Origin: Propionivibrio sp.
GTDB taxonomy: Bacteria > Pseudomonadota > Gammaproteobacteria > Burkholderiales > Rhodocyclaceae
Reading direction: 5' to 3'
DNA: 64,000 nucleotides
Assembly (NCBI GenBank): GCA_016705685.1
Contig: JADJLB010000001.1
Span: forward strand, 930,001-994,000
The position numbers and the translations under genes were made by a program. Positions 12,088 to 61,112 of this stretch are shown piece after piece. Under the pieces are notes generated by a model. That model was not told the DNA's origin and made no database searches. It saw only the letters and a program-made list of their open reading frames with translations. The first letter of the stretch is position 1, and every line of letters starts with the position of its first letter.

Positions 12088-12178
12088 ATCTTGTGGTTAA
12101 GCCTTATGATCGAATCCTCTTGTCGGACACTATGACAGAAAGATCGTTCACGGCTTACTCAGGGGTTCCATAGGCGCG

Positions 12179-13738
12179 ATGGCTGTTGTCACCGGATTTT
12201 CATGGCCTCTCGAATGCGAGGTCCATGTCCTTAGCGGAATGACGACCCAACCATTGCGTGACCTTCTCAGGGTTACGATCGACAACAGCCAGCCCTTTGC
12301 GCTCGACAACATGCCTCTCTCGGTCCAGACGGCGGTAGGTCTGGGCAGGCTCTCGTTCGAGCCTGTTTTCAAGCAAGCGCGATCCAACACGACGACGGCA
12401 CAAGGCAATACGCTCGTTCACGGAAACGGCGTTGATTTCGAGCTCGAGACCGGCCGCGTGATCGCGCTGCCCGTGCCTGCCGGGCAGCGGCGGATGCGTA
12501 ACTTTCTGGTCTGGGCGGAGCTCGAAATCGTCGAGTACATCAAGGACACGGAAGAGATGCCGATCGGGGACGACCACTCGGTTCTCGGCGTTCCGGTGGG
12601 TGGCGAGGCGCCCGGTAGCGGGTCGGGTAGCGGCGGCAGTGGTGGCAGCAGCACGGGGCCGGCGACGCCCGTCGCGAGAACGGCGCTTACCGTCATCCGA
12701 ATCCATGTCCATGATCGGATCCGGAACTGGTGGCCCACACCAGGAAAGCTGCGCGTCGTCTCCGGCAGCGCTGGGTCGTTGCCACGCCTGCTCGCCGAAT
12801 TCGACGATGGCGTGGCCGCCGACATCAGCGATTGGCCAGGCGTGATCGAGGGGTTGCGCCTCGATTGGACGAGCGCCGACCCGGCGCGTGTGCAAGTCGA
12901 TGCCTCCACGGGACTGCTGCGCAGTATCAGCGCGCCGTCGACGCCCGCCGTCGACATCCGGGCGACGCTGAACCACCCCGCGCTGCCCCCCGGATTCGCG
13001 CCCTCGGCACCGGTGAGCGCGCATGTGGTCACGGCGTGGTCCCAGGCGCGGCCGGTGACCTTCATCGCGGGGCCCGGCCCGCGGCGCCACGAGTCCGCGA
13101 CCAATATCCTGTTCCTCGCCGATGGCTTTATCGCGGGCGAGGAGGCGCGCTTCCGCGAGCTGGTGGCACGCCTCGCCAATCTGATCGTTTCGCGCGAGGA
13201 CATACAGCCGTTCAAGCTGCTGCGTGAGTCAATCAATTTCTGGGGCCTCTTCCTGGCCTCGGAGGAAAGTGGCACGACGCTGCTGAGCGAGCACCTGGCG
13301 CCGCCGGGGAATGCCGCGTTCAAGCTGGATGAGATGCCCGATGCGGATCTGGAGCACGAAACTGGGCCGCTTACGCTTGAGCGGTTGATCCGGCTCATCG
13401 GCTTGCCGGTGCCCACCGATTTTGGCGCCGGGGAGTCGGACGCCGACGCTTTCGCGCGCTTGGTGTCGTTCCTGGCGAATGATTTCGTGCTGCCAATGCC
13501 GTTCAACGTCGATCTGGCCACGTTCGTCGCTTGGCGTCGGCTTGCGGGCCGTGGTCTTGTGGAATCGCGCGACACGCTCTTTGCCGTGCAAGCCGGAGGG
13601 CGCCCCTTCGTGGGCCGGAGGCCGTCCCCTCGCCGTCATTGGATAGTCGCCGGATCGAGGATGACGACATTGCGGCGTTGGTCGGCGCGCTTTATTGCGA
13701 CGTCAAAGACGGCGGATCGCCCCAGCGCGTGCCGGTAG
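12179..13738 (+). CDS. M64-like metallopeptidase, N-terminal part (frame broken)
   Basis: This is the first gene of the 15-kb module. Residues 1-140 form an unrecognised domain without a signal peptide. A Gly/Ser-rich linker follows (GSGSGSGGSGG, about residues 142-155), then another unrecognised domain. From about residue 305 the sequence resembles the start of the M64 (IgA-peptidase-like) catalytic domain: TNILFLADGFIAGEEARFRE and LLRESINFWGLFLASEESGT. After about 13600 the frame stops making sense. The continuation (VPSPSLDSRRIEDDDIAALV) lies in the frame starting with codon positions 13531+3n until about 13740, and the rest lies in other frames to 14987. ATG 12179 is the longest start; ATG 12239 is an alternative. 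It follows amt by 91 bases. Confidence 0.6.
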   Translation: MAVVTGFSWPLECEVHVLSGMTTQPLRDLLRVTIDNSQPFALDNMPLSVQTAVGLGRLSFEPVFKQARSNTTTAQGNTLVHGNGVDFELETGRVIALPVPAGQRRMRNFLVWAELEIVEYIKDTEEMPIGDDHSVLGVPVGGEAPGSGSGSGGSGGSSTGPATPVARTALTVIRIHVHDRIRNWWPTPGKLRVVSGSAGSLPRLLAEFDDGVAADISDWPGVIEGLRLDWTSADPARVQVDASTGLLRSISAPSTPAVDIRATLNHPALPPGFAPSAPVSAHVVTAWSQARPVTFIAGPGPRRHESATNILFLADGFIAGEEARFRELVARLANLIVSREDIQPFKLLRESINFWGLFLASEESGTTLLSEHLAPPGNAAFKLDEMPDADLEHETGPLTLERLIRLIGLPVPTDFGAGESDADAFARLVSFLANDFVLPMPFNVDLATFVAWRRLAGRGLVESRDTLFAVQAGGRPFVGRRPSPRRHWIVAGSRMTTLRRWSARFIATSKTADRPSACR

Positions 13739-13808
13739 GTCGCGTATGGGGAGCGCCCGTCGCCCGTCCGGCGCGGCAAAGACGCTGGTCTTGTCTGCGT
13801 GCTGAGCC

Positions 13809-14987
13809 GTGCGGCGAGCTTCGGCGCAGCGACGACAGCCGATCCCGTGTTTGGCCCCGAAACATGTACTGGCGAAGCTGTGGCGCTACAACGGCACCGA
13901 AGACGAGATAGCGGCACGTCAAACCGGACGGGCGACCTTCGTGCTGCGACCGTCCATGGTCAATCCGGCCCACGGCGCGTCTCCGAACGTGGCCCTGCCC
14001 GTTGTGCATGAGATCGGCCATGTCTTCGGCCTTGTGGACGAGTACGGCGGCAAGCGTCCGACAGAGCAGGTGGAGCCACCCAAAGCGTTCCCCAACGGCC
14101 AGTGGCGATACGAGCTCTTCCGGCGTCCCGGCGATCCGCTCGGCGACTACGATCCGGCGACGACCCTCCCCACGGAGCAGCGGATTTCGCCTTCGAAAAT
14201 CGTCTGGGCGGCCTGGCCTCGCCTGCGCGCGGCTGGCGAACTAGTGGCGCCGCCGGCGATCGTCGGTACGACCGTCCGCGTGCAGTTGCGCATCGGGCAT
14301 GCGCTTAACTTCGCCGTCGATCAGTACGTCAAGTTGCGCCAGCGACCCCTGCTCGGCGGCGCGGGTGGGCGGAATTCGCCGGCCATGCGCATCACCGAGG
14401 TTATCGGGGACGAGGTTCGGCTTGAGCGTGCACCGAGCTTCACGTCGGGCGACATCCTTGATTTCGATGTCGTCGCGGACAAGCCTGCGCCAGTGTTGAT
14501 TCTGCCGTTGCGCCGCCCGGGTGCCGAAACTCCCGCCAGGCGCGAGCAAGGGCTCGTGGCCCCGGAAATCCTCGCGCACATTGGCGAGAGCGGCGGCCCG
14601 CTGAACGCTGCGGCGGATAATCCGTTGCGTCCTTGCACGCCGGCCGAGTCGCCCGTCGCCTCGCAGTTTCCGAGGAACTTGCCCGCGACGTTGACCCGGA
14701 CGCCGGCGATGGAAGGCGCGATGTTTCGCTGGCCAAGCATTGTCGGTCTGTACCAGGGCGGCATCGGCGTGAATTGCGGCGCCTATCATCCGGCGGGCGA
14801 TTGCATGATGCGCGGCGCGAGCGAGGAGTCCTGGGCGCAACGGACATCGTCGGCGGCGACGACCGAGTTCCGGCCTTTCTGTCACGTTTGCCGCTACTGG
14901 CTGGTCGATCGCATCGATCCCTCGAAGCATCGCGAGCTCGACGACCTCTACGACCCGAGCTACCCCGGACCGCGGCCGTATGAGTGA
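13809..14987 (+). pseudogene. M64-like metallopeptidase, C-terminal catalytic part (separated by frame breaks)
   Basis: This part carries the zinc site HEIGHVFGLVDEY (HExxH at 14007-14021), the M64 pattern. The Cys-rich ending (GAYHPAGDCMMRGASEE, then FCHVCRYWLVDRID) is also typical of that family. It has no start codon of its own with a ribosome-binding site. Homology upstream continues in other frames: AGLVCVLSRAASFGAATTAD at about 13784-13843, then PKHVLAKLWRYN from about 13855. Removing one C from CCCC near 13855 and one G from GGGG near 13748 joins the pieces, so this is probably the second half of the gene that starts at 12179. Three breaks within 250 bases could be sequencing error or real decay. 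The stop overlaps the next start. Confidence 0.65.
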
Positions 14988-17900
14988 GCGCGATACCCTC
15001 GCCGCGATCGCCGAGCATCTGGCACTCGCCTTCGCCCCGCTGCGCGAGGCGACTGCCGATCTCGACGCTTTCGTCGGCTTCATGCTACGACTCGGCTGGT
15101 CGGTCGAGTCGCTGCCGCAGGCCTTCGTTGATCTTGGCACCAATGCCGCGCAGTTGGCGGTCGCCGTCGAGGCGCTGATCGACGATCCCGACCCGGAGAG
15201 CGTTGAGACGACTTTTACGGCGCTGCGTAGCCTCGTTACGGCGATTGAGGCGGTCGATTCCGCCGGAGCGCCGGTCGGAGTCGATCCTGCCGCCTTTGCC
15301 GCGGAAGTCGGCGAGCGTCTCGGCGAGCTTCTGCTGACCGAGTATCTCGTCGTCGCCTGGCCAGGTTTGAGCCAGGTGCTGGAGACGCTTGGCGTCCTCG
15401 TCATCGACTATATCGACGAGACCGCTACGCGGCCCGGCCACGTCCAGCGCCGGTTTGTCTTCGACCAGCTCGGGGCGCTGGTCAGCGATCCGCTCGCCGC
15501 GCCGCGCCGTATCTACGGTTGGGGAACGCCGGACATCGACTTCGCGCGCCTTGCTTTCCACCTTGTCGAGATCATCCACGCCTTCGGCCCGGCGGCGATG
15601 CTGGGCCGGGTTCCGGCACCGCTCGCGCGCAGTTTCGCCGGCCCGGATGGCATGCCGGGCATGATGCTGCGTATTCCGCTGGTGCAGGTCGACGTCGCCG
15701 GCACGCCGGTCGAACTCGGCCTGTCATTGCTTGAGCTCCCACCGGAGACGGGCCGGCTCGGCGGCCTGGTCTTGCTGCCGTTGATCCCGTCGCAGGTGCA
15801 GCGCTCGATACCGCTAAGTGCCAACGCCTCGCTCGAGATCGGAGCCTCGTCGAATATCGCGCAGAGCTTTGGCGTGGTGATGCGGCCGGACGCGATCGCC
15901 TTGCGCTACCCCGGCAGTGGCGCTGCACCACCGACACTCGAATTCGATGCCGCATTGCGCTACGCGCCGCGCGCGCCTCGCCGCCTGGTCGACATCGGCG
16001 GCGCGGTCGGCATCGAGCTGGGCGGCATGGCGGTCGCGCTGGCGATCGATGCCGCAGCCGCGGACAGCGAAGTGGCGCTCAGTCTCGACCTCGCCGGCCT
16101 GGCGATTGCGATTGGCGGCGGCAAGGTCGACGGGTTCCTGGCCAAGATACTGCCCGGCGGCGGTCTGCGCGTGCCGATCGATCTCGGGCTGGCGTGGTCG
16201 AGTCGCAGCGGGGTGAGCTTCCGCGGTGGTGCCGGCTTCGACGTGACCGTCAGGCCGGACCTCCAGCTCGGCCCGGTCAAGGTCGATGCCGTGCGCGTGG
16301 CGCTCGCCGCCAATGCCACGAACCAGACGACACCGGCGCTGCGCGCCTTCGCCGCGGCGGTGTTCTCCGGCAAGCTTGGGCCGGTGCGTTTCCAGGTCAC
16401 CGAGATCGGCTTCCAGCTCGCTGTCGAGTTCCGCCCCGGCAACGCCGGACCGGTCGAGCTGACGATCGGCTTCAAGCCGCCGACCGGAGTCGGCCTCAAG
16501 ATCGATGCCGGCCCGGTGGCGGGCGGCGGCTACCTGTTCTTCGATTACGCCGCCGAACAGTACGGCGGCATCGTCCAGCTCTCGATCAAGAAGAAGATCG
16601 CGCTCAATGCGATCGCCTTGCTGACGACGCGGTTGCCGGGGCTGCCGCCGGGCGAGAAGGGCTTCTCCTTGCTGCTGATCATCACTGCCGAGTTCCCGCC
16701 GATGCCGCTCGGCTTTGGCTTTACGCTCAACGGTATCGGCGGGCTGATTGGCATCAACCGCACGATGCGGCTCGATCCGTTGCGCGACGGCGTGCGCGAC
16801 CGTTCGATCGAGGGAATACTCTTCCCGCAGGATCCGCTCGCCAATGCCGCGAGCCTGATCGGCGCCATGCAACGGATCTTCCCGCCGGAGGAGGGCCGCT
16901 TCGTGTTCGGCCCGATGGTCAAGGTCGGCTGGGGGCCGACGCAACTCATCACCATCGAGGCGGCGCTGATTCTCGAACTGCCCTCGCCGTTACGCCTCGT
17001 GTTGCTCGGACGCATGCGCGCAGTGCTGCCCGACAAGAACGCAGCGGTCGTCGACTTGCGCCTCGACGTCGTTGGTATCCTCGACTTCGATCGGAGCGAG
17101 GCTTCGATCGACGCCTCCTTCGTCGACTCGCGCCTGGCCGGTTTCACGCTCACCGGCGATATGGCTTTGCGCCTGGGCTGGGGCGCGACCAAAGCCTTCG
17201 CGCTCGCGGCCGGCGGTTTCAATCCGCGCTTCACGCCGCCGCCGGACTTTCCCGTGCTGCGCCGCCTGGCGTTGTCGCTCGCCGACAGCGAGAACCCACG
17301 CTTCCGGCTGGAGAGCTATCTCGCGCTGACGGCGAACACCATCCAGTTCGGTGCGCGCGCCGAACTCTCGGCGAAGGTCGAGACGGCGATCGGCGATTTT
17401 GGCGCCGCAGCGATGCTCTTCTTCGACGCGCTGATCGAGCTCGACCCCTTCGGTTTCATCGTCGACCTCGGCGCCACGATCGAGGTCACGCTCGGCGGAA
17501 GGCCACTGATCCAGGCCCAACTGATGGCCACCCTGAGTGGGACCAAGCCGTGGCATGCCGTGGGTTTCGTCGAAGTCGTCTTCCTTGGGCGCCATCGTAT
17601 TCCGTTCGAGGCGCGCGCCGGCGATCCCCAACCGACCACGCTGCCGACGATTGACTTGCTGCCCAAGTTGATTGCGGAGATCGCGCGGCCGGAATCCTGG
17701 ACCACGCTGCCACCGCCCGAGGCGGTCGACGTGCTTGTGTTGCGCGATACCGGCGCGAGCGGTGTGGCCCTTCTCCATCCGCTGGGAGGCGTGGCTTTAC
17801 GTCAGCGCCTGCTACCCTTCGGCAAGCGACTGGCGTGTTTCGGCTCCGCCAAGCCGGAGGGCGGCGGAGCGATGTTTGCGCTGAAGGAGATCGTCGTTGG

Positions 17901-18411
17901 TGGACGGGGCGACACGGCCGCGCCGCTGCTTGACGACTTCGCTCCGGGTCAGTACGAGGCGCTCACTGAAGACGAAAAGCTCGCGCGCCCCGCCTTCGAG
18001 CGCATGCAGGCTGGCGGCGAGACGACCACCGCGCGGGCGATCCGACTTCCGCTCGTCGATCCGCGTACCGGACTCCATGGCACACATATCGCGATCGACT
18101 ACGAGGAGCGCGTCATCGACCGGATCGCCCATCCTTCGCGCACAACGCGTCGTCGCAAGAAACCGGTGATGGCGATCGGGCTGCTTGCGGCGATGGCCGA
18201 TGATGGCCTACGCGGCGACGTCGAGTTCGACGGTCCGAAGGGCCGCGCGATCGCGGTTCCGGGGGAGCGTTGGCGCGCGGCAGACGCAGATCACCTGGGT
18301 GCTATACCGGGTGCTACCCTCGGCAGTTCCGCCGAGGCGCATGATCGTCGCCGGCTCAGCGGGCGGCCGGCGAACACCGTGACCGTGATCGCGCGACATG
18401 AGGCGGCCTGA
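14980..18411 (+). CDS. Very large DUF6603-like protein of unknown function
   Basis: The protein has 1143 residues, no signal peptide and no clear transmembrane helix. Residues 1-170 are helical and acidic. The middle (about 200-900) is a long series of alternating hydrophobic beta-like segments rich in Gly, Leu and Ile. It includes LGFGFTLNGIGGLIGINRTM (about residues 577-596), which I associate with the DUF6603 family of large bacterial proteins. The amphipathic pattern could form a long beta structure that shields a hydrophobic surface, but this is inference. The last 200 residues are more polar and end with an Arg-rich tail. The start overlaps the peptidase stop by eight bases and the next gene starts three bases after the stop, so the genes are coupled. 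Confidence 0.75.
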   Translation: MSERDTLAAIAEHLALAFAPLREATADLDAFVGFMLRLGWSVESLPQAFVDLGTNAAQLAVAVEALIDDPDPESVETTFTALRSLVTAIEAVDSAGAPVGVDPAAFAAEVGERLGELLLTEYLVVAWPGLSQVLETLGVLVIDYIDETATRPGHVQRRFVFDQLGALVSDPLAAPRRIYGWGTPDIDFARLAFHLVEIIHAFGPAAMLGRVPAPLARSFAGPDGMPGMMLRIPLVQVDVAGTPVELGLSLLELPPETGRLGGLVLLPLIPSQVQRSIPLSANASLEIGASSNIAQSFGVVMRPDAIALRYPGSGAAPPTLEFDAALRYAPRAPRRLVDIGGAVGIELGGMAVALAIDAAAADSEVALSLDLAGLAIAIGGGKVDGFLAKILPGGGLRVPIDLGLAWSSRSGVSFRGGAGFDVTVRPDLQLGPVKVDAVRVALAANATNQTTPALRAFAAAVFSGKLGPVRFQVTEIGFQLAVEFRPGNAGPVELTIGFKPPTGVGLKIDAGPVAGGGYLFFDYAAEQYGGIVQLSIKKKIALNAIALLTTRLPGLPPGEKGFSLLLIITAEFPPMPLGFGFTLNGIGGLIGINRTMRLDPLRDGVRDRSIEGILFPQDPLANAASLIGAMQRIFPPEEGRFVFGPMVKVGWGPTQLITIEAALILELPSPLRLVLLGRMRAVLPDKNAAVVDLRLDVVGILDFDRSEASIDASFVDSRLAGFTLTGDMALRLGWGATKAFALAAGGFNPRFTPPPDFPVLRRLALSLADSENPRFRLESYLALTANTIQFGARAELSAKVETAIGDFGAAAMLFFDALIELDPFGFIVDLGATIEVTLGGRPLIQAQLMATLSGTKPWHAVGFVEVVFLGRHRIPFEARAGDPQPTTLPTIDLLPKLIAEIARPESWTTLPPPEAVDVLVLRDTGASGVALLHPLGGVALRQRLLPFGKRLACFGSAKPEGGGAMFALKEIVVGGRGDTAAPLLDDFAPGQYEALTEDEKLARPAFERMQAGGETTTARAIRLPLVDPRTGLHGTHIAIDYEERVIDRIAHPSRTTRRRKKPVMAIGLLAAMADDGLRGDVEFDGPKGRAIAVPGERWRAADADHLGAIPGATLGSSAEAHDRRRLSGRPANTVTVIARHEAA

Positions 18412-18414
18412 GCC

Positions 18415-21108
18415 ATGAGCTACCGGTTCCTTCGACATCTCAGGTTCGGTGCCGGCCTATTGATCACGCAGCGTGAAGGCGACGCCGTCGCCGTCGCCCG
18501 GCCGCCCGTGGCGGTGGCGGCGCAGATCGACCACGCGGGGCAGTGGGCCGATCCAGCGACCATGCCAGCGCCGATTCAACACTCGGTCCCTGGGCCGTCG
18601 CTCGCGCTCTACGGCCCGGGCGATGCGGTCGCGATCGACCGGCGCCAGATTCTGCGCGAGACGCCCCTGCGCGAGTCGCTCGATGCCGATCCCGATCTGC
18701 TCTGTGCGATCGAGTTCCGCCACGCCGGCCTGCCGTGGCTGATGACGCCGTTCGCGCCCGCGGCGTCCAATGACGCACTACGGCCATGGATCGCGCTCGT
18801 CGTCGTCCCGCTTGGCGCCGCAACCCTGACGCCAGGAATGCCGCTGCCACGCCTCGCCGTGAGCGATGCGAGTCAGCTTCCCAAGATTGGCGAAGCGCAT
18901 GCCTGGGCGCATGTGCAGGCCAGTGGCGTTGCTGCCGGCGACGATATTGGCGCGTTGATCGCCACCGATCCTCTGCGCACCCTCTCGCGTCTGCTCTGCC
19001 CGCGACGCTTGCAGCCGCGCACGCGCTATCGGGCCTGCGTCGTGCCGACTTTCGAGGCAGGGCGCCGCACGGGGCTGGGGCAGGACGTTGTTGCGGCCAG
19101 TGCGCTGGCGCCAGCCTGGGGCGCGAGCGGACCGATCGAACTCCCCGTCTATTACAGCTGGGAATTCACCACCGGCGAGGAGGCCGGCTTCGAGGTGCTG
19201 GTGCGGCGTCTCCAACCGCGCCCCGGCCTGACCGGAATCGGCACGCGGCCGCTTGACGCGAGCGATCCGGGCGGCGGCCTCGTGGCGTCGACGACTCCAG
19301 TGACGCTTGCCCTGGATGGTGCGCTGGGGCCCACAAATACCAATCGACCGGCCGTTCCGACGGCGCTCGCGCAAGCGCTCGATGGCCTGCTCGACCGGTC
19401 TGATCGGGTCGGGCCACCGCGCTATGGGCGCTGGCATGCCGGCGCCCTACGTGCGGCAGCCGGTCCCGTCTGGCTCGACGAGCTTAATCGCGACCCGGTG
19501 CGCCGGGTTGCCGCAGCGCTCGGCACGCGTGTCGTCCAACAGCGTCAGGAAGAGCTGATGGCCGCCTGCTGGGAGCAGGTCGGCGAGATCCTGCGCGCCA
19601 ACCAGATCCTGCGCCAGGGCGAGTTGGCAGTGGTGGCGTCGGGCCGTGTCTACGCGCGTCGCGTCATGCCCTTGATGGCCGACGGCGCCGTGATCGCGTT
19701 CGCGAGCCCCGGTGCGGCACGCGTGCGCGCCCATCCGGTGCTCACGCTGCGCGGGCTGGCGCGCAACTCCTGTCTGCCGCTGAGCGCGTTGACGGGCGCT
19801 TTCCGTAAAGCGATGCGCACGACGGGCCCGGTCGGCCGGCGCTTGCGCCGCGCCAATGACGTCGGGCCGCGTATCGGTCAAGTGTTGCGCGCACTCGCCC
19901 AGGGCCTGGCGCGCGCCCTGCCGCGCCCGCTACCGCAGGCCGTCCGCCTGCCGTCCGCCTGGACCCGGGGCAATGCGCCCGACCCAATGCCGGCGTTGCC
20001 AGCGGCCCTTCGCACTCGCGTGAACGCCGCCGCAGCGATCGCGTCGAAGCTGGCGCTTCGGGCGCGCCAGCCTGTCTGCGTTCCGCTCGATCCGCTCACG
20101 CTGGCCGATCGCTTGGCGACATCGCTCGACCCGCGCCGCACGATTCCCAGGCGCGTGCGCGGGCAGTTGGCAATCCCCAGCGGCGTATGGGAGCCGGCCG
20201 ATCGCATCGATCCAGTGATCGCTGCACCGCGGATCGACACGCCGATGGTGCTGCCGCTGATCGATCTCGGCACGCCGTGGCTCATGCCGGGTGTCGACGG
20301 CGTCCCGCCCGAGAGCGTTGTCGCCGTGGCCGCCAATCGCGGCTTCATTGAAGCCTATCTGGTCGGCCTCAATCACGAGATGGCGCGCGAGCTGTTATGG
20401 CGCGGCTTCCCGACCGACCAGCGCGGCACGGTGTTCGCGCGTTTCTGGGACACAACGGCGACCGCCGGCCGGGTCGATGCGCCGGCCTACGACATCGCGC
20501 CGATCCACACCTGGCGCGCCACCAGCGCACTCGGGGCGCATCCCGAAGGTGGTGCGGCAGCACAGCTGGTGATGATCATCCGCGGCGAGCTTGTCCGCCG
20601 CTTTCCCAACGCCACGATATTCCTGCAGAAGGCCAGGGCGGGCGGCGGTACGCGCACCCCCAACGCGATGATCGGCGGACCGTCGAGCGAATTCCCGATC
20701 TTTCGTGGCAGCCTCGGCGATGACCTTGTCTATCTCGGCTTCCGCGTCACGCCGGCCGATGCCCGGGGCGGCACCGCGGCGGCGCCCAACGGCTACTTCC
20801 TGGTTATTCAGGAGCAGCCGCGCGAGCTGAGCTTCGGCTTTTCGAGCTCGGATGGCGATTTCCGCGCCGAAGACGCGACGCGCTGGTCGAGCTGGACCGA
20901 TGTCGTCTGGGAATCATTGCGGCCGAACGCAACCGGGCACCTCGATCTCGCCGCACTGGAAACTACCGGTTTCGGCGGCAACGTGCAGGCGCGACCCTCG
21001 GCCTTCGCTTTCGAGCCACGCTGGTCGGCGTCGAGCGATGCGCTGGCCGCGATCGCGCTGCGACGGCCCTTCCGGCTGTCGATCCACATCAGCGCGGTGC
21101 TGCCATGA
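18415..21108 (+). CDS. Large conserved protein of unknown function (897 aa)
   Basis: I do not recognise a characterised family. There is no signal peptide or membrane helix. Segments that look strongly conserved in pattern are LPVYYSWEFTTGEEAGFEVL (about residues 243-262), PPRYGRWHAG (about 338), AALGTRVVQQRQEELMAACW (about 364-383) and LNHEMARELLWRGFPTDQRG (about 652-671). Later come GYFLVIQEQPRELSFGFSSS and TRWSSWTDVVWE. Similar phrases occur, as far as I recall, in unannotated giant proteins of actinobacteria, myxobacteria and cyanobacteria. The middle third (19.8-20.2 kb) is Arg/Pro/Ala-rich and low in complexity. It is three bases after the DUF6603-like gene and overlaps the next gene (ATGATG/TGA), so it is translated as one unit with them. 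Confidence 0.75.
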   Translation: MSYRFLRHLRFGAGLLITQREGDAVAVARPPVAVAAQIDHAGQWADPATMPAPIQHSVPGPSLALYGPGDAVAIDRRQILRETPLRESLDADPDLLCAIEFRHAGLPWLMTPFAPAASNDALRPWIALVVVPLGAATLTPGMPLPRLAVSDASQLPKIGEAHAWAHVQASGVAAGDDIGALIATDPLRTLSRLLCPRRLQPRTRYRACVVPTFEAGRRTGLGQDVVAASALAPAWGASGPIELPVYYSWEFTTGEEAGFEVLVRRLQPRPGLTGIGTRPLDASDPGGGLVASTTPVTLALDGALGPTNTNRPAVPTALAQALDGLLDRSDRVGPPRYGRWHAGALRAAAGPVWLDELNRDPVRRVAAALGTRVVQQRQEELMAACWEQVGEILRANQILRQGELAVVASGRVYARRVMPLMADGAVIAFASPGAARVRAHPVLTLRGLARNSCLPLSALTGAFRKAMRTTGPVGRRLRRANDVGPRIGQVLRALAQGLARALPRPLPQAVRLPSAWTRGNAPDPMPALPAALRTRVNAAAAIASKLALRARQPVCVPLDPLTLADRLATSLDPRRTIPRRVRGQLAIPSGVWEPADRIDPVIAAPRIDTPMVLPLIDLGTPWLMPGVDGVPPESVVAVAANRGFIEAYLVGLNHEMARELLWRGFPTDQRGTVFARFWDTTATAGRVDAPAYDIAPIHTWRATSALGAHPEGGAAAQLVMIIRGELVRRFPNATIFLQKARAGGGTRTPNAMIGGPSSEFPIFRGSLGDDLVYLGFRVTPADARGGTAAAPNGYFLVIQEQPRELSFGFSSSDGDFRAEDATRWSSWTDVVWESLRPNATGHLDLAALETTGFGGNVQARPSAFAFEPRWSASSDALAAIALRRPFRLSIHISAVLP

Positions 21109-24100
21109 TGTCCTCGGCCGCACTTGCCGCGATTGCCAACGCGCGCGCGGCGCTGCAGGCGGCGGAGGACGCACTGCCGAACACAGTGATTCAGGGCGGC
21201 GATCGCGACGCGGCACGTAAGGCCGTTGAAGCAGCTCGGGCCGAACTTGACCAGACGCGCCTGCAGGGCCTGGGCAACGATTCTGGCTTCGGACTGGTTG
21301 CCGCGGATCTCCCGCTTCTGCTGCTCCCGGTGCGACTCGAGACGCGGTACGTGTCGGGCCCGTATCGGCTTCTGGTGCGGATCTATCCCGACGACATCCA
21401 TGCCGACGGCCACGAGCCGGCGCTTACCCGCGAGGAGCGTGAGCTGCAGAAGAACTACCTGCTCACGATCGAGTCGAGGCACGACGAGCGCGACTGGCTG
21501 GCGGCGTGGCGTGAGCTCGCGCGCCGTGTCGGACCACTGCGCGCGCTGTGGCTGGCGACGGGCCGTACGAACGTGCTGCGGCCGTCCGGGTGGACCCGCG
21601 CGGCCACCGCGCGATTGCTGCCCGATCGGTTTGTCGCCTTCGCCTGGACAACCCCCGGCAACGCGCCGATTCGTGCGGCCGCGCCGAATCCAGTGCGCGA
21701 GCCGCTCATTCTTGGGGCCGATCCGATGTCCGACAATATCGATCCGGACCAACCGCTCGGTGGTGGCGCGCGCTGGCTGCATGACTTCAAGGCGGCGCTC
21801 GAGGCCGGAATGGCGCTCGAAGTTCCGCTCGCGCCGGGCGAGCGCGTGACGCGGCTCGTCGCCCTCGGTGTTCGTGCAACGATCGATCCGTCGGCGCAGG
21901 CCGTCGAGTTCGCGCGACTGATCAATGCGCATCGCTGTACCAACGACGTGTCGTTGTTAGCACCCGGCGAACCGACGAACGCGCTCGGCGAGCAGCGCAC
22001 CGCCTATCGCGCGCAGCCGGACGCCGATGGTCTCTATCGCGACGAGCTGGCCTATTTCGACACTGGTGGCCTTACGCGGCGGCGGCGCGCGTCGTGGGAG
22101 CCGGGCGGTCCGCCGCGCCGCTTCGACGGTGCCGAGGCGGCGGGGTTCCGGCTCGATCGCGCGCTCGGCCTGGCACCCGGCACGCTCGGCCGTCTCGCCG
22201 GCTCGGATGACGACCTGGCGAGTCATGAGCGTTTGCTGCGCAGTCTGGTCGCTTCGGCCGTGACCGACGGCATCGAGCGCCTGCTCGCGCCTTCGGTCAC
22301 GCCGGAGGCGATTGGCTACGCGCTCGCCGTGCTGCGCGCGCAAGTCAGCGCCGCCGGTCCGTTCGCCACCTTGCGCATCGGGCCGCAGCCCTATGGCGTG
22401 CTGCCGGTGCGAATCGCCGATCGCGTGCAGCTTGGTGCCGAGCCGGCAGCCCTTCTCGACCTGCTTGATCGGCTACGCGCGAACGTCTTCGAACCGGCGC
22501 TTGCCGACATTCTGCGCGTATCCGAACCGCGCCGCAGCGATCCGGTGATGAGCAATCCAGGCCGGCGCCTGCTCGAGATTCTGCGCTTCGATGCAAACGT
22601 GCGCACCCTCGGTATCCGCGCCGTGCTCGATCCGGCGCTGCTTTCGGCCGTGCTGCCGGGCATGAGTACGCGCGACCGCAAGGCCAACGCAGCCGCGCGC
22701 CGGAAGATTTGTAGCCTGCTTGCGGCTCTTGGCGATCCCTCGCCGGCGGCCACCGCGATTGGCATGGCCGGCCTGTTTGACGACGTGGCACCGGTCACGC
22801 TGTCGATGGTCGGCGACGCGGCGGCGCTGTCACAGATCCGTGCGTTGCGGCCACCCGAGTTCAGCAACCCGCGACCAGTCGCGCCCGTGCCATTGATGAC
22901 GCTCGAGTTGCTCGATGGCATCGGGGGTCCGTCGCGTCCGTTCACGCTGCTTTACGAGCTGGCGCGCCAGGCGATTCTGCATACGGCCGATCGCGCCGCG
23001 CGGCAGTGGCTGCGCGCCGACGCGCTCGCCTATGGTCGCCCCGTGCCGAGCTTCGATAATCCGCTGGCGCCGCTCGGTACGATGGAGGCGCGGCTGCGCG
23101 CGCCCGCACCGTCTGATTCCACCAACACTATCGCCTTCCTGCTCGACAACGGTGTCCAAGCGGTGCCGGCAGCGAGCGAGTTCTGGCAGTTGCGCGAGGA
23201 TCTCGGCCGCCTTGTTTCGCTGCCGCCGGCGCGCATTGAGGCCACGTTGGGCGCCGTGCTAGGCCTGCTCACCCATCGGCTCGATGCCTGGTATACGGGC
23301 TTCGCCGTGGAGCGGCTCGAGGCGTTGCGCAGCGATGGCGCAAGCTCGGTCGGTGGCGCGCCGCCGATGAAGCCGGGTCTCGTCGTCGGCGCCTTCGGCT
23401 GGCTCGACGCCTTTCCCGCCGGCGGCACGCCGCCAATCGCCGGCTACGTCCATGCGCCGAGCACGCAGCACGCGATGACTGCGGCGGTCCTGCTCTCCGC
23501 CGACAAGGCGCATCGCGAGCAGGGTCACGGCAATGCCTTCGCGGTCGATCTTTCATCCGCGCGTGTGCGTGGCGCGCTGGATCTCCTTGAGGGTCTGCGC
23601 GCCAGCCAGCCGCTGGGCGCGCTGCTCGGCTATGGAATCGAGCGCCGGCTCACGGACGCGGCGCCGGCATTGATCGCGCAGGTGCGTGCCGTGGCGCCGC
23701 TGGTTGCCAACAAGCGCGAGCCGAGCGGTCAGCCAGCCGAGAGCGTCGCGGCAGACAATGTCGTCGACGGCCTCGCGCTGCTGCGCCTGGCCGGTTATGA
23801 CGGCACCAACTCGCCCGACGCGTCTCGACTCACGGCGCTCGACATCACCGGTCGCAGCGTGATCGCGCCGGTCCTGGCCGATGCCGCCGAACGGATCGAT
23901 GCGCTCGCTGACCTTCTGCTCGCCGAGGCCGTGCACCACACGCTCGCCGGCACGCCGATGCGCGCAGGTGCCGCCGGCGATCTGCTTGCGGGCGGCCCGG
24001 TGGCCGTGCCTGACGAGATCGAGGTCGCGCGCATCGGTCAGCGCGGCATCGCCACGACGCATAAGGTTCTGGCGCTCTTCGAATCCGACGTCGCGGGTTC

Positions 24101-25457
24101 GTCACGCTGGACAACGACGCCTCGGGCAAGCGCCGAGCCGGCACTCGAGGCGTGGCTCGCGCAACAGCTTCCCGATCCGTCATTGATTGCCATCGCCGCA
24201 ACATTCACGCTGGCGGACGGTACGGCGGCACCGGTGACGACGACGCTGGCCAACGTGCTCGCCAACGTGGCGGCGCAGCGCGGACTCGGGGCGATTGATC
24301 TTGTGCTGATGAAGACTCCGGTGCTCGAACGGCGCATCAGTGCGCTGCTTGAGTCGCTGCGTCCTGCCACGAGTGCCGGCACGCCGGTGCTGCAGCCCGA
24401 GGCCAAGCGCGAAGGCCAGACCGGCGACTGGTCGCTGGCCGAGGTCATCGAGCTCGCCGCGACGCTGCGTCGCCTGCTCGGCGGCGCACGCGGCCTCGTG
24501 CCGGCCGACCTGGATGCCTTGGGCCAGACGGCCAGTCTCCAGCTCGACCGGGTCGAGCTGGAGAAACGGCTAGCGGCGCTGAATGGGCAGGTCGTGGCAG
24601 CACGCGACGCGCTCGTCGCCGCCGGCAACGAAGCCGCACGCTTGCTCGCGCTTGAGGCAGCCGAACTCTTTGGCCTCGATGCGATCCCCAGCGCCGGCGC
24701 GCTTGCCGCCGCCGTCGCCTCGGTGCGGCGCGAGTTCGATCGGCGCATCGCCGAAGCCGGCGATACCTCGCGACCGCTCGCCGAGCGGATGCGCTCCCTC
24801 GCCGGGCCGGAGCTCGTCGTCGTGCCGCAACTCGTGGTCACCGGCGCCGTGCTCGACACCGCCTTTAGGGCCGTGATCGGTGCGACGCCGCCGGAGATTC
24901 GCGCCTTCCTCGCGCGCGCGGCGGGTGTGCGCGAGCCGGTGGCGCGCCTCGATGCCGTACTCGGCCAGGCCGAGGCACTTGCCGGCACCGCGAGCCTGGT
25001 GCACGTGCTCGGTGTGGCGCAGCACCCGATGGCGCCCGGTGAGCGCTGGACGGCCTTGCCGGGCCCGACGGCGCCGTCGCGGACGTCCTATGTTGTCATG
25101 CGACCCGCAGCGCTCGACCTGGCGCGCATGACGCATGTCGCGGGTTTGTTCATCGACGCATGGGCCGAGGTCGTGCCGCAGGCTGAGCTCGACACGGCAA
25201 TCGTGTTCGACGCCCCCGCTCCATCGCAAGCCGCACCCAACGCGATGCTGCTGCTCGTTCCCGAGGCGTCGCGAGAGTCATGGACGGAGAGTGACGTGCT
25301 GGCCCATGTGCTTGAGGCGCTGGCGCTCGCCAAGCTGCGTGCCGTCGATCCCGACCTGATCACGCGCGCGGGCGCGCTGCTGCCGGCGCTTCTGCTGCGC
25401 GATGGCGACGGAACCGACAGCCTCGCCGATCTCTGGACAACACCGGTGGCGCCATGA
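21105..25457 (+). CDS. Giant conserved protein of unknown function (1450 aa)
   Basis: This is the largest gene in the window and has no characterised relative that I can name. Residues 1-60 are Ala-rich and helical. Around residue 69 begins LPLLLLPVRLETRY, followed by LLVRIYPDDIHADGHEPALT. Further conserved-looking phrases are LRIGPQPYGVLPVRI (about 424-438), GYVHAPSTQHAMTAAVLLS (about 782-800), and DLSSARVRGALDLLEGLRAS with LGALLGYGIERRL (about 815-850). A heptad-like segment near residues 1145-1190 (LEKRLAALNGQVVAARDALV) may be a coiled coil. There is no signal peptide or transmembrane segment. It overlaps both neighbours by four bases (ATGA). The length and mosaic of helical and globular parts suggest a scaffold or large complex subunit, which is only inference. 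Confidence 0.75.
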   Translation: MMSSAALAAIANARAALQAAEDALPNTVIQGGDRDAARKAVEAARAELDQTRLQGLGNDSGFGLVAADLPLLLLPVRLETRYVSGPYRLLVRIYPDDIHADGHEPALTREERELQKNYLLTIESRHDERDWLAAWRELARRVGPLRALWLATGRTNVLRPSGWTRAATARLLPDRFVAFAWTTPGNAPIRAAAPNPVREPLILGADPMSDNIDPDQPLGGGARWLHDFKAALEAGMALEVPLAPGERVTRLVALGVRATIDPSAQAVEFARLINAHRCTNDVSLLAPGEPTNALGEQRTAYRAQPDADGLYRDELAYFDTGGLTRRRRASWEPGGPPRRFDGAEAAGFRLDRALGLAPGTLGRLAGSDDDLASHERLLRSLVASAVTDGIERLLAPSVTPEAIGYALAVLRAQVSAAGPFATLRIGPQPYGVLPVRIADRVQLGAEPAALLDLLDRLRANVFEPALADILRVSEPRRSDPVMSNPGRRLLEILRFDANVRTLGIRAVLDPALLSAVLPGMSTRDRKANAAARRKICSLLAALGDPSPAATAIGMAGLFDDVAPVTLSMVGDAAALSQIRALRPPEFSNPRPVAPVPLMTLELLDGIGGPSRPFTLLYELARQAILHTADRAARQWLRADALAYGRPVPSFDNPLAPLGTMEARLRAPAPSDSTNTIAFLLDNGVQAVPAASEFWQLREDLGRLVSLPPARIEATLGAVLGLLTHRLDAWYTGFAVERLEALRSDGASSVGGAPPMKPGLVVGAFGWLDAFPAGGTPPIAGYVHAPSTQHAMTAAVLLSADKAHREQGHGNAFAVDLSSARVRGALDLLEGLRASQPLGALLGYGIERRLTDAAPALIAQVRAVAPLVANKREPSGQPAESVAADNVVDGLALLRLAGYDGTNSPDASRLTALDITGRSVIAPVLADAAERIDALADLLLAEAVHHTLAGTPMRAGAAGDLLAGGPVAVPDEIEVARIGQRGIATTHKVLALFESDVAGSSRWTTTPRASAEPALEAWLAQQLPDPSLIAIAATFTLADGTAAPVTTTLANVLANVAAQRGLGAIDLVLMKTPVLERRISALLESLRPATSAGTPVLQPEAKREGQTGDWSLAEVIELAATLRRLLGGARGLVPADLDALGQTASLQLDRVELEKRLAALNGQVVAARDALVAAGNEAARLLALEAAELFGLDAIPSAGALAAAVASVRREFDRRIAEAGDTSRPLAERMRSLAGPELVVVPQLVVTGAVLDTAFRAVIGATPPEIRAFLARAAGVREPVARLDAVLGQAEALAGTASLVHVLGVAQHPMAPGERWTALPGPTAPSRTSYVVMRPAALDLARMTHVAGLFIDAWAEVVPQAELDTAIVFDAPAPSQAAPNAMLLLVPEASRESWTESDVLAHVLEALALAKLRAVDPDLITRAGALLPALLLRDGDGTDSLADLWTTPVAP

Positions 25458-27085
25458 ACGATCTCTACCTTCGCCTCGAGCCACGCACGCGCGCCGACGA
25501 CCTGACGCCCGGCCTTGCGGCTGCTGTGCACGACCCGGCCTGGCTGTTAGCCCGCCAGTGGGTGATGGGCGAGTTTGACGGCGAGGACGCCGGCACACCG
25601 GTCTTGGCGTCCACGACACTGCGCACGCATGCGCTCGCGGAGCTCGAGCTGGGAGCCGGACAGCGCGTGCGGCTCGATCCGGCTGGGGCGCCGCTTGACA
25701 TGCTGATCGAGCGCGAACCTACGCTGGCGGCGGCGCGGTGGACAATGCGTCGACGCATCGATGTCGGGCGCGAACTCCTACAGCGCTTGCGTGAGGCCGG
25801 TTTGGCCGCGTTGATCACCGACGTTGTGCGCGAGTATCGACTGGGGGTGCCGACGGGCGGCGAGGCGCTGCTCGATCCACAGGCGGTGGGGTTGGCGCGT
25901 GTCGCGGCGGGACGTCTGCCCGACGGGCAAGCCTGCCACGACGACGCCGGTGCGCCCGGTGCGACGCTGGCCCGGCTCGGGCTGGGCGGCGCCGATATCG
26001 CGCGGCTCGAACCGGCACTGAAGGCCTGGCGCGAGTGGCTGGCAACCGTCCACGCCGAGCCCGCTGCCGGCCACGACGCGTGGGACGCCAAACGCTTCGA
26101 GTATCGCGCACGCTTGCTGGCGCCGAGCTGGTCGCACGCACTGGTCGCCGAGAGCGAGCGCGGTGGGCGAGTCGATTGGGCGAGTTTCGACGCCGTTGCC
26201 GTTCCGGCGAGCGCCCCGCCACCGGCGCCGCTAACGATCACCACACTCCCTACGCCGGTACGCTTCCGTGGCATGCCGCTGGCGCGGCATTTCGAGATGG
26301 AGGATGCCGGCATCGACCTCGGCGCGGTCGATGCCTCGGCCGCCGATCTGGCACGCATGGCGCTGCTGGAGTTCGCTCTCGTCTATGCCGGGGACATGTT
26401 CATGATTCCGGTGCGCGTGCCGCTGGGCACGGTAGCCGAAATCGTTTCGCTCGATGTCGAAGACAATTTCGGCCTGACCACGCGCATCGCCAGTGCCGCG
26501 CGTGCGCCGAACGCAAACGCGCCTGGCTGGAGCTTCCTCGCGCCGGCGACGCCATCGGGCGGTCGCGTGCCTGCGCTCGTGCTGCCTCATGTTGCCGGCC
26601 ATCCTTTGGTCGGCCCGTTGATCGAGGACGTGCGATTGATGCGCGACGAGATGGCCAATCTGGTCTGGGCGATCGAGCGCGCAACCGAAGGCGGAGACGG
26701 GCGCGCCAAGCCGCGCGCGGAGACAGCGCCAGTGGCGCCCGAACGGGGGGAATCCGCGGTTGCCGCCGCGCTCGCCTACTGCCTGATGACGGCCGCGCCG
26801 CCGCACTGGTTCCCGCTGGTCCTTGAGCCTGGGCTGCCGCGCCGCTTGCGGCTGGCGCTGCTGGCGCCGTCGACTGAAGTGCCGCGTGGGCTGCTGCTGC
26901 CCGCGCCCGGTGGCCTCGTCAACGAAGAGGAAGTACCCCGAGAGGGCTTGCGCCTGTTGCGCGAGCGTGTGCTCGCGCGCAGCAGCGACGGTGCGACCCA
27001 CCTTTGGACCCGCCGTCGGCGCCAGGTCGGCCGAGGCGAGGGGAGCAGCGGGCTGGCTTTCGATGAGGCTGAGGTTCAGGGCTGA
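25454..27085 (+). CDS. Conserved protein of unknown function (543 aa), last gene of the module
   Basis: The family is uncharacterised. The N-terminus holds AVHDPAWLLARQWVMGEFDG with EDAGTPV (about residues 24-50), a phrase I recall from large unannotated proteins that occur beside the same partners. Near residue 310 are FALVYAGDMFMIPVRVPLGT and VAEIVSLDVEDNFG. The C-terminus ends in a basic stretch and GSSGLAFDEAEVQG. No export signal is seen. The start overlaps the 1450-residue gene by four bases, so it closes a coupled row of four genes. About 260 bases follow without a gene and with no clear terminator. They include an imperfect palindrome (CCGGTAGCTAGACCGG near 27143) that lacks a T run. 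Confidence 0.72.
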   Translation: MNDLYLRLEPRTRADDLTPGLAAAVHDPAWLLARQWVMGEFDGEDAGTPVLASTTLRTHALAELELGAGQRVRLDPAGAPLDMLIEREPTLAAARWTMRRRIDVGRELLQRLREAGLAALITDVVREYRLGVPTGGEALLDPQAVGLARVAAGRLPDGQACHDDAGAPGATLARLGLGGADIARLEPALKAWREWLATVHAEPAAGHDAWDAKRFEYRARLLAPSWSHALVAESERGGRVDWASFDAVAVPASAPPPAPLTITTLPTPVRFRGMPLARHFEMEDAGIDLGAVDASAADLARMALLEFALVYAGDMFMIPVRVPLGTVAEIVSLDVEDNFGLTTRIASAARAPNANAPGWSFLAPATPSGGRVPALVLPHVAGHPLVGPLIEDVRLMRDEMANLVWAIERATEGGDGRAKPRAETAPVAPERGESAVAAALAYCLMTAAPPHWFPLVLEPGLPRRLRLALLAPSTEVPRGLLLPAPGGLVNEEEVPREGLRLLRERVLARSSDGATHLWTRRRRQVGRGEGSSGLAFDEAEVQG

Positions 27086-27348
27086 TTCGCGCCGCGCCGC
27101 AAGCGCCCATTGCGGATTGCCGGGATGGAAATTGCCCTCCGTCCGGTAGCTAGACCGGCCGATGGGGCCACTGGCAAGTGTCCGGCACGTCGGCCGCCTG
27201 TATATGCGCTTCGGTCTGGCCGATCACTTAACCACGGGTGTGCGAAGATGACTGTCAGGTTTGGTAGAGGTTGCCCAAACGAGCTGCGATGAACAACTTG
27301 GCTTCAATTGGGTGGAATGCGTAAATTGAATCGAGAAAGGGAAGCGCC

Positions 27349-53841: not shown

Positions 53842-55401
53842 ATGGGTCCCATTCAGAATTATGACGATCTGCCGATGAACTGGGTTGGGGACTGGGCGGG
53901 GCGCCGCGCTGCCCTGACACCCCATCGGGTCGCCTTGTATGACTCGTTCACCCATGAGTCGTATACCTTCCAGGACTTGAACGAGCGCGCTTGCCGGGTC
54001 GGGGTCTATCTGACCGATGTGCTGGGCTTGCGCAAAGGCGACGTCGTGACGCTGATTTGCCGCAACCGCATTGAACCCATCGACATTTATCTGGCATGCG
54101 GAAAACTGGGGATCATCCTGGCTCCGCTCAGCCAGCGTTTGAAGAAGCCGGAACTGGACGATTTGTTGGCGCGTCTGCAGCCCGGTGTTCTCATCCACGA
54201 ACATCAATTTAGCGAGCTGATCTCAGCCTTGTCGTTACCGGCTTCGGTTCGATCGGTGATCAACATCGACGATGAGCGGAATTTTTTTGCAGACGTCATC
54301 CTGAAGTCCGAACCCCGCGAGGTCAATATCCCGCTGGCGATGAATGAGCGTTGTTTGTACGTGCATACTGGCGGAACGACCGCAGTACCGAAAATTTGCA
54401 TCGTGTCGTACCGGCAAATGGTCTGGAATTCATTCGACATCCTGGCTACCGGCGTCGTCGGGCTCTACAGGAAGGTGTTGATCACGTTCCCGTTCTTCCA
54501 TGTCGGAGGATGGAACACCTTTACACCGTTGTTGCACGCAGGCATTACCAGCGTCCTGATGCGCGAATTCAACCCCGGCCTGGTGCTCGATCTGATACAT
54601 GAAGGGCGCGTCGAGAATTTTGGTGCCGTTGAAGCCATGCTGCAATTTCTGATTGCCCATCCGAAATTCGGCGAAACCGATTTTTCAGGGTTGAAGGCGA
54701 TCACCACCGCCGCTGCGCCGTGCTCGAAAGCCGTGATGCAGACCTTCCTGGACAAGGGGGTTCCTGTCAGCCAGACCTATGGGATGACGGAAGCTGGCCC
54801 GTCCAATTATGCCTACATTCCCCGCTCGGATTCGTTCGAAGATATGCTCGCCAACTCGGCGAGTATCGGCACCTCGATGTTTCATTGCGACGCCAGGATC
54901 GTCGACAAGGAATCCGGGCGCGAGGTCAAACCCGGCGAAACCGGTGTCTTGTGTTTGCGCAGCCCGCATAACTTCGACGGCTATCTCAACGATCCGGCGC
55001 GAACGGACAAAATCATCCGCCAGGATGGCTGGATCTACACTGGAGACCTGGCCCTGCAGGATGCGGATGGGCTGACGTACATCCAGGGGCGCGCGGACAA
55101 TATGTTCATTTCCGGGGGTGAAAACATTTCTCCGGAGGAGATCGAGCTGGCCTTGATGAAACATCCCGCTGTCGCAGGAGCAATTTGCGCCGGGGTTCCA
55201 GATGCAAAATGGGGGCAGGCACCGGTGGCACTGGTCATCTTCCACGCCGGAAAAAGCGTCGCAGAAGATGAACTCAAAGCCTTCTGCCGTGACTTCTTGG
55301 CCGACTATAAGGTTCCGAAGCAGATCCGGCCGGTGGCCGAGTTGCCGCTTACCGCCGTTGGGAAACTGAACCGGAATGCCGTTGTCGCAATTTTTTCCTG
55401 A
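53842..55401 (+). CDS. AMP-forming acyl-CoA ligase
   Basis: The enzyme activates a carboxylic acid with ATP and CoA. It has 519 residues. ATG 53842 follows GAAGGAGA. The ATP motif is YVHTGGTTAVPKICIVSYRQ (the TSGTTGxPK loop with His-Thr in the first positions). Also present are SQTYGMTEAGPSNYAYIP, GWIYTGDLALQDADG (adenine-binding Asp), GRADNMFISGGENISP (hinge) and LTAVGKLNRNAVV (catalytic lysine). The pattern resembles medium-chain or aromatic acyl-CoA ligases. The substrate cannot be fixed from sequence; propionate or acrylate would suit the neighbourhood but are not shown. It stands alone, convergent with the small exported protein gene. Confidence 0.87.
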   Translation: MGPIQNYDDLPMNWVGDWAGRRAALTPHRVALYDSFTHESYTFQDLNERACRVGVYLTDVLGLRKGDVVTLICRNRIEPIDIYLACGKLGIILAPLSQRLKKPELDDLLARLQPGVLIHEHQFSELISALSLPASVRSVINIDDERNFFADVILKSEPREVNIPLAMNERCLYVHTGGTTAVPKICIVSYRQMVWNSFDILATGVVGLYRKVLITFPFFHVGGWNTFTPLLHAGITSVLMREFNPGLVLDLIHEGRVENFGAVEAMLQFLIAHPKFGETDFSGLKAITTAAAPCSKAVMQTFLDKGVPVSQTYGMTEAGPSNYAYIPRSDSFEDMLANSASIGTSMFHCDARIVDKESGREVKPGETGVLCLRSPHNFDGYLNDPARTDKIIRQDGWIYTGDLALQDADGLTYIQGRADNMFISGGENISPEEIELALMKHPAVAGAICAGVPDAKWGQAPVALVIFHAGKSVAEDELKAFCRDFLADYKVPKQIRPVAELPLTAVGKLNRNAVVAIFS

Positions 55402-61019: not shown

Positions 61020-61022
61020 AAT

Positions 61023-61053
61023 CCTGGAAACCTCAGCTGGATGAGATGGCGTG
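61023..61053. repeat. Diverged single terminus of the MITE-type repeat
   Basis: This 31-base segment beginning CCTGGAAACCTCAGCTGG is identical at 25 of 31 positions to the inward-reading right end of the element at 36831-37066. Most differences are transitions. No matching second end is found in the following 250 bases, so it is a solo or decayed end. Confidence 0.6.
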
Positions 61054-61112
61054 TGCCGCAAGGCAACACGGACGACTGGCAGTGTAACCGGATTACCCAG
61101 GCCCTGCACGGG

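Follow-up and report, generated by a model that had tools for sequence, protein, structure and literature searches.

An apparently mobile gene module of Propionivibrio with a shared chassis of giant proteins and an exchangeable enzyme slot

The window analyzed in this study is a stretch of 64,000 nucleotides from the genome of a Propionivibrio sp. (GenBank assembly GCA_016705685.1, contig JADJLB010000001.1, positions 930,001 to 994,000), in which the region 12179-27085 forms a single co-directional module, entirely on the + strand, made up of an enzyme slot (E) followed by four intact genes, here called D (1143 aa), A (897 aa), B (1450 aa), and C (543 aa). The E slot holds two pieces of a broken M64-like metallopeptidase gene, i.e., an N-terminal piece (open reading frame (ORF) of 519 aa, 12179..13738) and a C-terminal piece with a zinc-binding motif (ORF of 392 aa, 13809..14987). 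D (14980-18411) is a DUF6603 protein that matches PF20248 over residues 428-998 (E 1.2e-126, 423.7 bits vs. a curated cut-off of 27). Its residues 1-450 (14980..16329) follow the enzyme type, while residues 451-1143 (16330..18411), which contain most of the DUF6603 domain, follow A, B, and C and not E, and are counted here with the shared chassis. The chassis proteins A (18415..21108), B (21105..25457), and C (25454..27085) had no match in Pfam, NCBIfam, or PHROGs at E ≤ 1, with the exception of one PHROG match of B at E 0.24, and no convincing PDB relative was recovered for them by profile search (for the A profile, no PDB chain at E ≤ 1). The host genome (3.46 Mb, 97% complete) contains one DUF6603 match and one C match.

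The junctions measure -8 bases from M64 to D, +3 from D to A, and -4 both from A to B and from B to C, in agreement with the 4-8 base overlaps or 3-base gap given in the initial annotation of the window, a reading made from the sequence alone. Its coordinates, sizes, and single direction over 14.9 kb were confirmed for D, A, B, and C, the DUF6603-like nature of the 1143-aa protein was recognized correctly, and the recurrent phrases that it quoted are conserved within their families. The absence of signal peptides and membrane helices that it reported for the window proteins was also recovered here: in a simple hydropathy scan, which does not replace a dedicated predictor, their Kyte-Doolittle means over 19 residues peak at 1.20-1.72, and no N-terminus resembled a signal peptide.

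The metallopeptidase, on the other hand, had been described as one reading unit, which has to be corrected. The M64 zinc motif consists of HExxH followed by an acidic pair, and it is present in the second window piece (13809-14987); however, the gene is split into two ORFs, and in a blastx comparison with the nearest relative (Candidatus Propionivibrio aalborgensis, locus L025), where the gene is one ORF of 937 aa, the frame appears to shift at least twice between approximately 13.6 and 14.0 kb. The two pieces are 72% and 78% identical to the L025 M64 protein and score 18.7 (E 0.0011) and 20.9 bits (E 2.2e-4) against PF09471 (Peptidase M64), both under the curated cut-off of 26 bits, vs. 33.2 bits for the intact L025 relative. 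Three further ORFs of the window (53842-55401, 56008-59439, and 59931-61109) have the same lengths as the M64 pieces and D (519, 1143, and 392 aa); their sequences are unrelated to those of the module, and the lengths coincide by chance.

L025 is the nearest relative among the loci found, and the flanks of the two modules were compared at the DNA level. One single blastn alignment (82% identity over 14.9 kb) covers positions 12175..27086 of the window, beginning four bases 5' of the M64 start codon and stopping one base 3' of the C stop codon, and no other match was found across the 22.7 kb of L025 at E ≤ 1e-10. The GC content is 0.689 in the module vs. 0.590/0.595 in the flanks of the window, and 0.665 vs. 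0.594/0.609 in L025. No flanking repeats of ≥ 11 bases were found around the module and no integrase within it. Judged by these sequence comparisons the module is a mobile unit, and because a second genome shares the entire 14.9 kb at 82% identity and the similarity halts at the module ends, it is far more than a chance assembly. The best 80 of its relatives span 13 phyla, one of them archaeal, and relatives are also carried by haloarchaeal and Gemmatimonadota plasmids; the plasmid relatives (13 records, protein identity 28-41%) belong to Streptomyces, Nocardia, Rhizobium, Paraburkholderia, Gemmatirosa, and four haloarchaea. Searching a collection of 84,980 species (one genome per species) with the A profile gave at least 591 candidate stretches, at least 537 of which encode A relatives (some genomes with two); to judge by the record titles, many of the hosts are environmental. 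A, B, and C are also present on L024 (MT835531.1), a 40-kb scaffold of faecal origin that is labelled 'Bacteriophage sp.' and marked as unverified, and that may be a mislabelled bacterial contig.

The association of the four chassis genes was analyzed in an A-anchored set, consisting of the best 80 of the at least 537 confirmed places (L025-L104). B was present in 79/80, D in 74/80, and C in 73/80 loci; all six absent D and all seven absent C fall at contig ends, and the sole absent B belongs to a 4.9-kb contig. The gene order is D-A-B-C in every one of these loci with D, except for a Leptolyngbya locus (L033, 9944-22880) that is permuted to A-B-C-E-D, the sole order exception among the 80. 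In order to avoid ascertainment through A, a C-anchored search was also run, which matched 1 of 398 genomes in the phylum of the window (its own genome), 10 of 246 in the class of the L096 genome, and 6 of 247 in the phylum of the L054 genome (centre genomes counted). When one C-anchored locus was taken for each of the 14 non-centre genomes, B was found in 14/14, A in 13/14, and D in 11/14, with the misses at contig ends; B is fused with C in one C-anchored locus (L131). In eight annotated plasmid records, an offset of exactly -4 accounts for 12 of the 28 junctions tabulated and the widest gap is 362 bases, and overlapping module genes occur also in distant records. The claim that these large families travel together is therefore upheld by a fixed order in nearly all loci with long enough contigs, and they are not scattered singly, apart from a giant DUF6603 class without recognizable B and C. 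The idea that unrelated genes merely adjoin here, in favor of which only the lack of annotation can be named, is refuted by this co-occurrence: the order is kept over 13 phyla and haloarchaeal plasmids, the C-anchored set gives the same association, and gene overlaps persist in distant records, so that we give it practically no credence.

The giant proteins came to light among the DUF6603 matches, which occur in six of the 274 genomes in the class of the window. They have 3000-3400 aa, are encoded on the - strand in L010 (10972-19998), L011 (5609-15601), and L012 (7845-18014), and in each case the protein encoded next is A-like (E 3e-5 to 3e-21). Eight of their neighbours showed no telling Pfam match other than a DctM transporter. 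We regard them as a second, diverged class of DUF6603 proteins.

We scanned 48 proteins encoded in the slot upstream of D, plus further single proteins, against Pfam and obtained matches to PhoD, M64, PLD, subtilase, galactose/glyoxal oxidase, tyrosinase, patatin, DUF2515, Het-C, beta-lactamase, and trypsin/Nal1. For the 80 loci, we tallied the nearest slot-class ORF upstream of D on the same strand, which is not always adjacent (1.4 kb off in L086), leaving out seven loci without D before A and seven without room upstream. The remaining 66 loci held M64 (16), PhoD (11), trypsin-like (10, of which 2 by their C-terminal domain, while several assignments rest on weak Pfam scores plus a GDSG motif), subtilase (6), PLD (5), DUF2515, tyrosinase, and galactose-oxidase-like proteins (2 each), and beta-lactamase-like, Het-C, and patatin proteins (1 each). 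A named enzyme class was thus present in 57/66, and 5/66 loci had no slot-class ORF; a further 4/66 held unnamed families, which are circular classes because the profiles were derived from the slot proteins themselves. The initial annotation had offered, as one reading, a multi-subunit assembly with a peptidase; the M64 peptidase is not a fixed subunit, as the slot holds M64 in 16/66 loci and other enzyme classes in 41/66. Catalytic motifs were sought by simple patterns: GDSG was found in every listed trypsin-class ORF, the subtilase serine motif in 8/8 subtilase ORFs, the HxK motif in all six full-length PLD ORFs, and an HExxH-type motif in 20/27 M64-class ORFs, the seven without it including fragments and the D-adjacent copy in L029 and L046. 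A single class can recur in phyla that are far apart, as M64 does in five phyla and PhoD in six. Taken together, these assignments show a slot before D that is filled by one of many unrelated predicted enzymes, most of them with a catalytic motif where checked.

L029 (401-2968 and 3776-6379) and L046 (468-2990 and 3768-6374) each carry tandem M64-class genes, the first with the zinc motif and the second without it by simple pattern, and these are perhaps active/inactive pairs. Trypsin-like and subtilase slot proteins have a C-terminal domain of approximately 125 aa in common. Stand-alone copies of this domain (138-140 aa) are located just upstream of trypsin-like/subtilase E genes in L061 (4399-4812), L082 (4455-4868), and L088 (3668-4087); a stand-alone copy matched no Pfam family at E ≤ 0.05.

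Sister loci can have D, A, B, and C proteins that are 51-69% identical, yet wholly unrelated enzymes, with L063/L077, L055/L057, and L048/L091 as examples. Trees were built for 63 loci (from L025-L104 plus six others) with an enzyme label and all four ORFs above set lengths, and the changes of enzyme label were counted on them (16 types, minimum 15). The D tree required 25 changes and the A, B, and C trees 33, 33, and 34, compared to approximately 43, and never less than 37, for shuffled labels; as the D N-termini of different classes may be non-homologous, such counts describe label clustering and not dated exchange. Divided by segments, D gave 16 changes for residues 1-225, 16 for 226-450, 31 for 451-670, 34 for 671-890, and 33 for 891-1143, and each of the eight A/B/C segments gave 34-35. 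Among pairs with D 451-890 at 60-95% identity, D 1-450 is 16-30% identical (median 24) in the 132 different-enzyme pairs vs. 17-84% (median 52) in the 37 same-enzyme pairs, and in the different-enzyme pairs the mean identity steps up between D residues ~400 and 480, close to residue 428, where the Pfam match to DUF6603 begins. Being neighbours would be enough to link E with the D N-terminus, but it would not place the switch point inside D; its location there suggests that the N-terminal part of D has to fit the enzyme and the DUF6603 half has to fit the chassis. In four Nitrospira loci (L039, L041, L045, and L050), two enzyme-D pairs precede a single A-B-C (PLD-like fragment, D, then M64 or subtilase, D; the first enzyme is visible only as a PLD-like fragment where the retrieved sequence ends), which is what a cognate enzyme-D unit predicts. 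The pattern appears best explained by E and D residues 1 to ~450 being swapped as a cassette onto a shared chassis. At the level of sequence, a mobile module with a shared chassis, an exchangeable enzyme, and a switch point in D about where DUF6603 begins is well supported.

In the structural model of D, N-terminal helices (mostly up to residue 225) are followed by strands, and the DUF6603 half forms a long beta-meander, loosely like porins or ApoB; the model of A (pLDDT 81) has beta domains around a long helical region and no clear fold match, and no confident fold match was obtained for either model. A PA14 or lamin-tail insert is present in the C relatives of L031 and L014, and PA14, lamin-tail, FG-GAP (in one A protein), or peptidoglycan-binding domains were found in single members. 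The cysteine content of the chassis is 0.14-0.38% vs. 0.85% in neighbouring ORFs. A strongly hydrophobic insert was noticed in the variable middle region of two A proteins, L009 (residue 618, by hydropathy scan) and L023 (by eye).

We tentatively favor the reading that the module, which moves horizontally, encodes a polymorphic complex that carries enzymes and acts outside the cell. This outside action is what we infer from a chassis that is poor in cysteine and from the surface-binding domains present in few members. The D N-terminus would dock the cognate enzyme, the DUF6603 half of D would dock the enzyme-D pair to A-B-C, the long beta-meander may contact or enter lipid, and C, and in some lineages A, would bind target surfaces. 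The assembly would get out of the cell, in most cases with no classical signal peptide, and would present or deliver a single enzyme (peptidase, lipase, phosphodiesterase, or oxidase) to nearby cells or to the surfaces of these cells. A more specific version, which we consider rather doubtful, is a delivery machine shared by bacteria and archaea, in which A-B-C would make up a particle that binds the target, the DUF6603 sheet of D would insert into or wrap lipid in order to pass the cargo, and D 1-450 would be a replaceable cargo adaptor that moves with the enzyme by recombination inside D.

Several observations weigh against this enzyme-carrier reading. No secretion or delivery was observed and no export signal was found. 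The D model has a pTM of 0.53, and its matches to porins and ApoB have an rmsd of 10-12 and involve the DUF6603 half only. Surface domains scored above the Pfam cut-off in 2 of the 6 long C proteins scanned, the E proteins are not cysteine-poor (0.88%), and the E gene of the window itself is broken. A hydrophobic N-terminus was present in 7/51 slot proteins and a membrane-helix-like stretch in 9/51, and such a stretch occurred also in 24/85 D, 5/93 B, and 1/90 A proteins, so that some members may be anchored in the membrane or exported classically. Three of the six DUF6603-bearing genomes in the class of the window (L010-L012) hold the giant form without recognizable B and C. Regarding the cassette, linkage accounts for part of the co-segregation, since E adjoins the D N-terminus; D 1-450 evolves faster than the rest of D in same-enzyme pairs too, 5 of the 37 same-enzyme pairs (identity pairs are not independent of each other) fall under 30% in D 1-450, and the trees were quick ones.

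The enzymes in the slot, mostly broad hydrolases and oxidases, together with the surface-binding inserts in few members and the many environmental hosts, would also suit a secreted or surface-held exoenzyme scaffold used for feeding, cellulosome-like in its logic, that retains a hydrolase or oxidase close to the cell and does not inject it. We consider this unlikely, as each locus has one or two enzymes and not an array, the chassis is very large for a single enzyme, and most slot proteins lack a signal-peptide-like start, although simple exoenzymes are exported by Sec or Tat. Quite unlikely in our view is an intracellular conflict or abortive-infection complex, in which A-B-C-D would sense an invader or damage and unleash E inside the cell. 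It would fit with the window proteins having no signal-peptide-like N-terminus, with the effector-like enzyme types and plasmid carriage, and with the patchy distribution (the C-anchored genome counts above), but the core of the window is devoid of NTPase, nucleotide cyclase, or nucleic-acid-binding domains by Pfam, and no PADLOC 2023 profile matched D, A, B, or C at E ≤ 0.01 (among three E proteins of relatives there was one DrmC match, E 0.0065). The cysteine depletion of the chassis also speaks against it, while the PA14, lamin-tail, and FG-GAP inserts and the oxidase-type enzymes suit an outside location. The 'intracellular' alternative offered by the initial annotation is thus less likely, although the evidence, i.e., surface-binding domains in few C/A proteins and a cysteine-poor chassis, is thin.

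If the enzyme-carrier reading is true, an enzyme-carrying machine is present in probably hundreds of species and went unnoticed since its giant proteins are annotated at most as 'DUF6603'. DUF6603 would gain a function, there would be an explanation for the varied peptidases, lipases, and oxidases that microbes of soil, sludge, and the sea encode ahead of giant hypothetical proteins, and the cassette boundary in D predicts that the D N-terminus binds its own enzyme and DUF6603 binds the chassis.

We rate the module as new because the chassis proteins have no annotated function, the D and A models have no confident fold match, and, to our knowledge, no known system combines these features. The initial annotation had likewise proposed an undescribed system, and no known system was matched here: published polymorphic toxin types, extracellular contractile injection systems (eCIS), the type VI secretion system (T6SS), Tc complexes, PADLOC-listed defence systems, and NTPase conflict systems were each ruled out on the tested features. 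D belongs to DUF6603 (PF20248), a family of no annotated function in which the giant proteins form the second class, and the open-licence literature gave no description of the module or of DUF6603/PF20248. Tc toxin complexes and other multi-part toxin carriers use several giant proteins to carry an enzyme, and the module is alike in this respect as well as in the FG-GAP repeats of one A protein, but D, A, B, and C of the window have no Tc, SpvB, or Rhs match in Pfam.

The eCIS are patchily distributed in environmental bacteria and archaea and have varied enzyme cargo, both of which apply to the module, but no sheath or tail genes were found among its proteins. In principle, a contractile injection system (eCIS or T6SS) whose genes lie elsewhere could have the module as its payload, with A-D as loading chaperones or tail parts, and a contractile-sheath match (E ≤ 0.001) was indeed found in 8 of the 10 module-bearing genomes searched, 5 of them above the curated cut-off. 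We consider this very improbable, since the window's genome has no match to the contractile sheath PF04984 or the T6SS VipB/TssC sheath PF05943, two module-bearing plasmid records have no sheath match (the plasmids were searched, the chromosomes were not), and in two evenly drawn sets with centres left out the sheath is present in 5/14 module genomes vs. 93/477 others (p 0.17, not significant).

NTP-dependent conflict systems with effector-associated domains (PMC7159879) resemble the module in their exchangeable effectors, and some slot enzymes share an adaptor-like domain of ~125 aa at one end; they differ in having an NTPase in the core, where none was found among the core proteins of the window. 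Polymorphic toxin systems are characterized by one conserved trafficking part and many enzymatic parts exchangeable by recombination (Zhang et al. 2012, PMC3482391), and the module resembles them in its constant part, its exchangeable enzymes, and the presence of Het-C. Such systems have a dedicated immunity gene beside the toxin. Among the 31 genes downstream of C, no family of those listed (25 of 57) occurred in more than 3, so that no common immunity-type gene was seen there. In the module, the enzyme is a separate gene and the constant part comprises four giant proteins, and whereas polymorphic toxins swap the C-terminal toxin domain of one constant polypeptide, its varying unit is gene E together with D residues 1-450.

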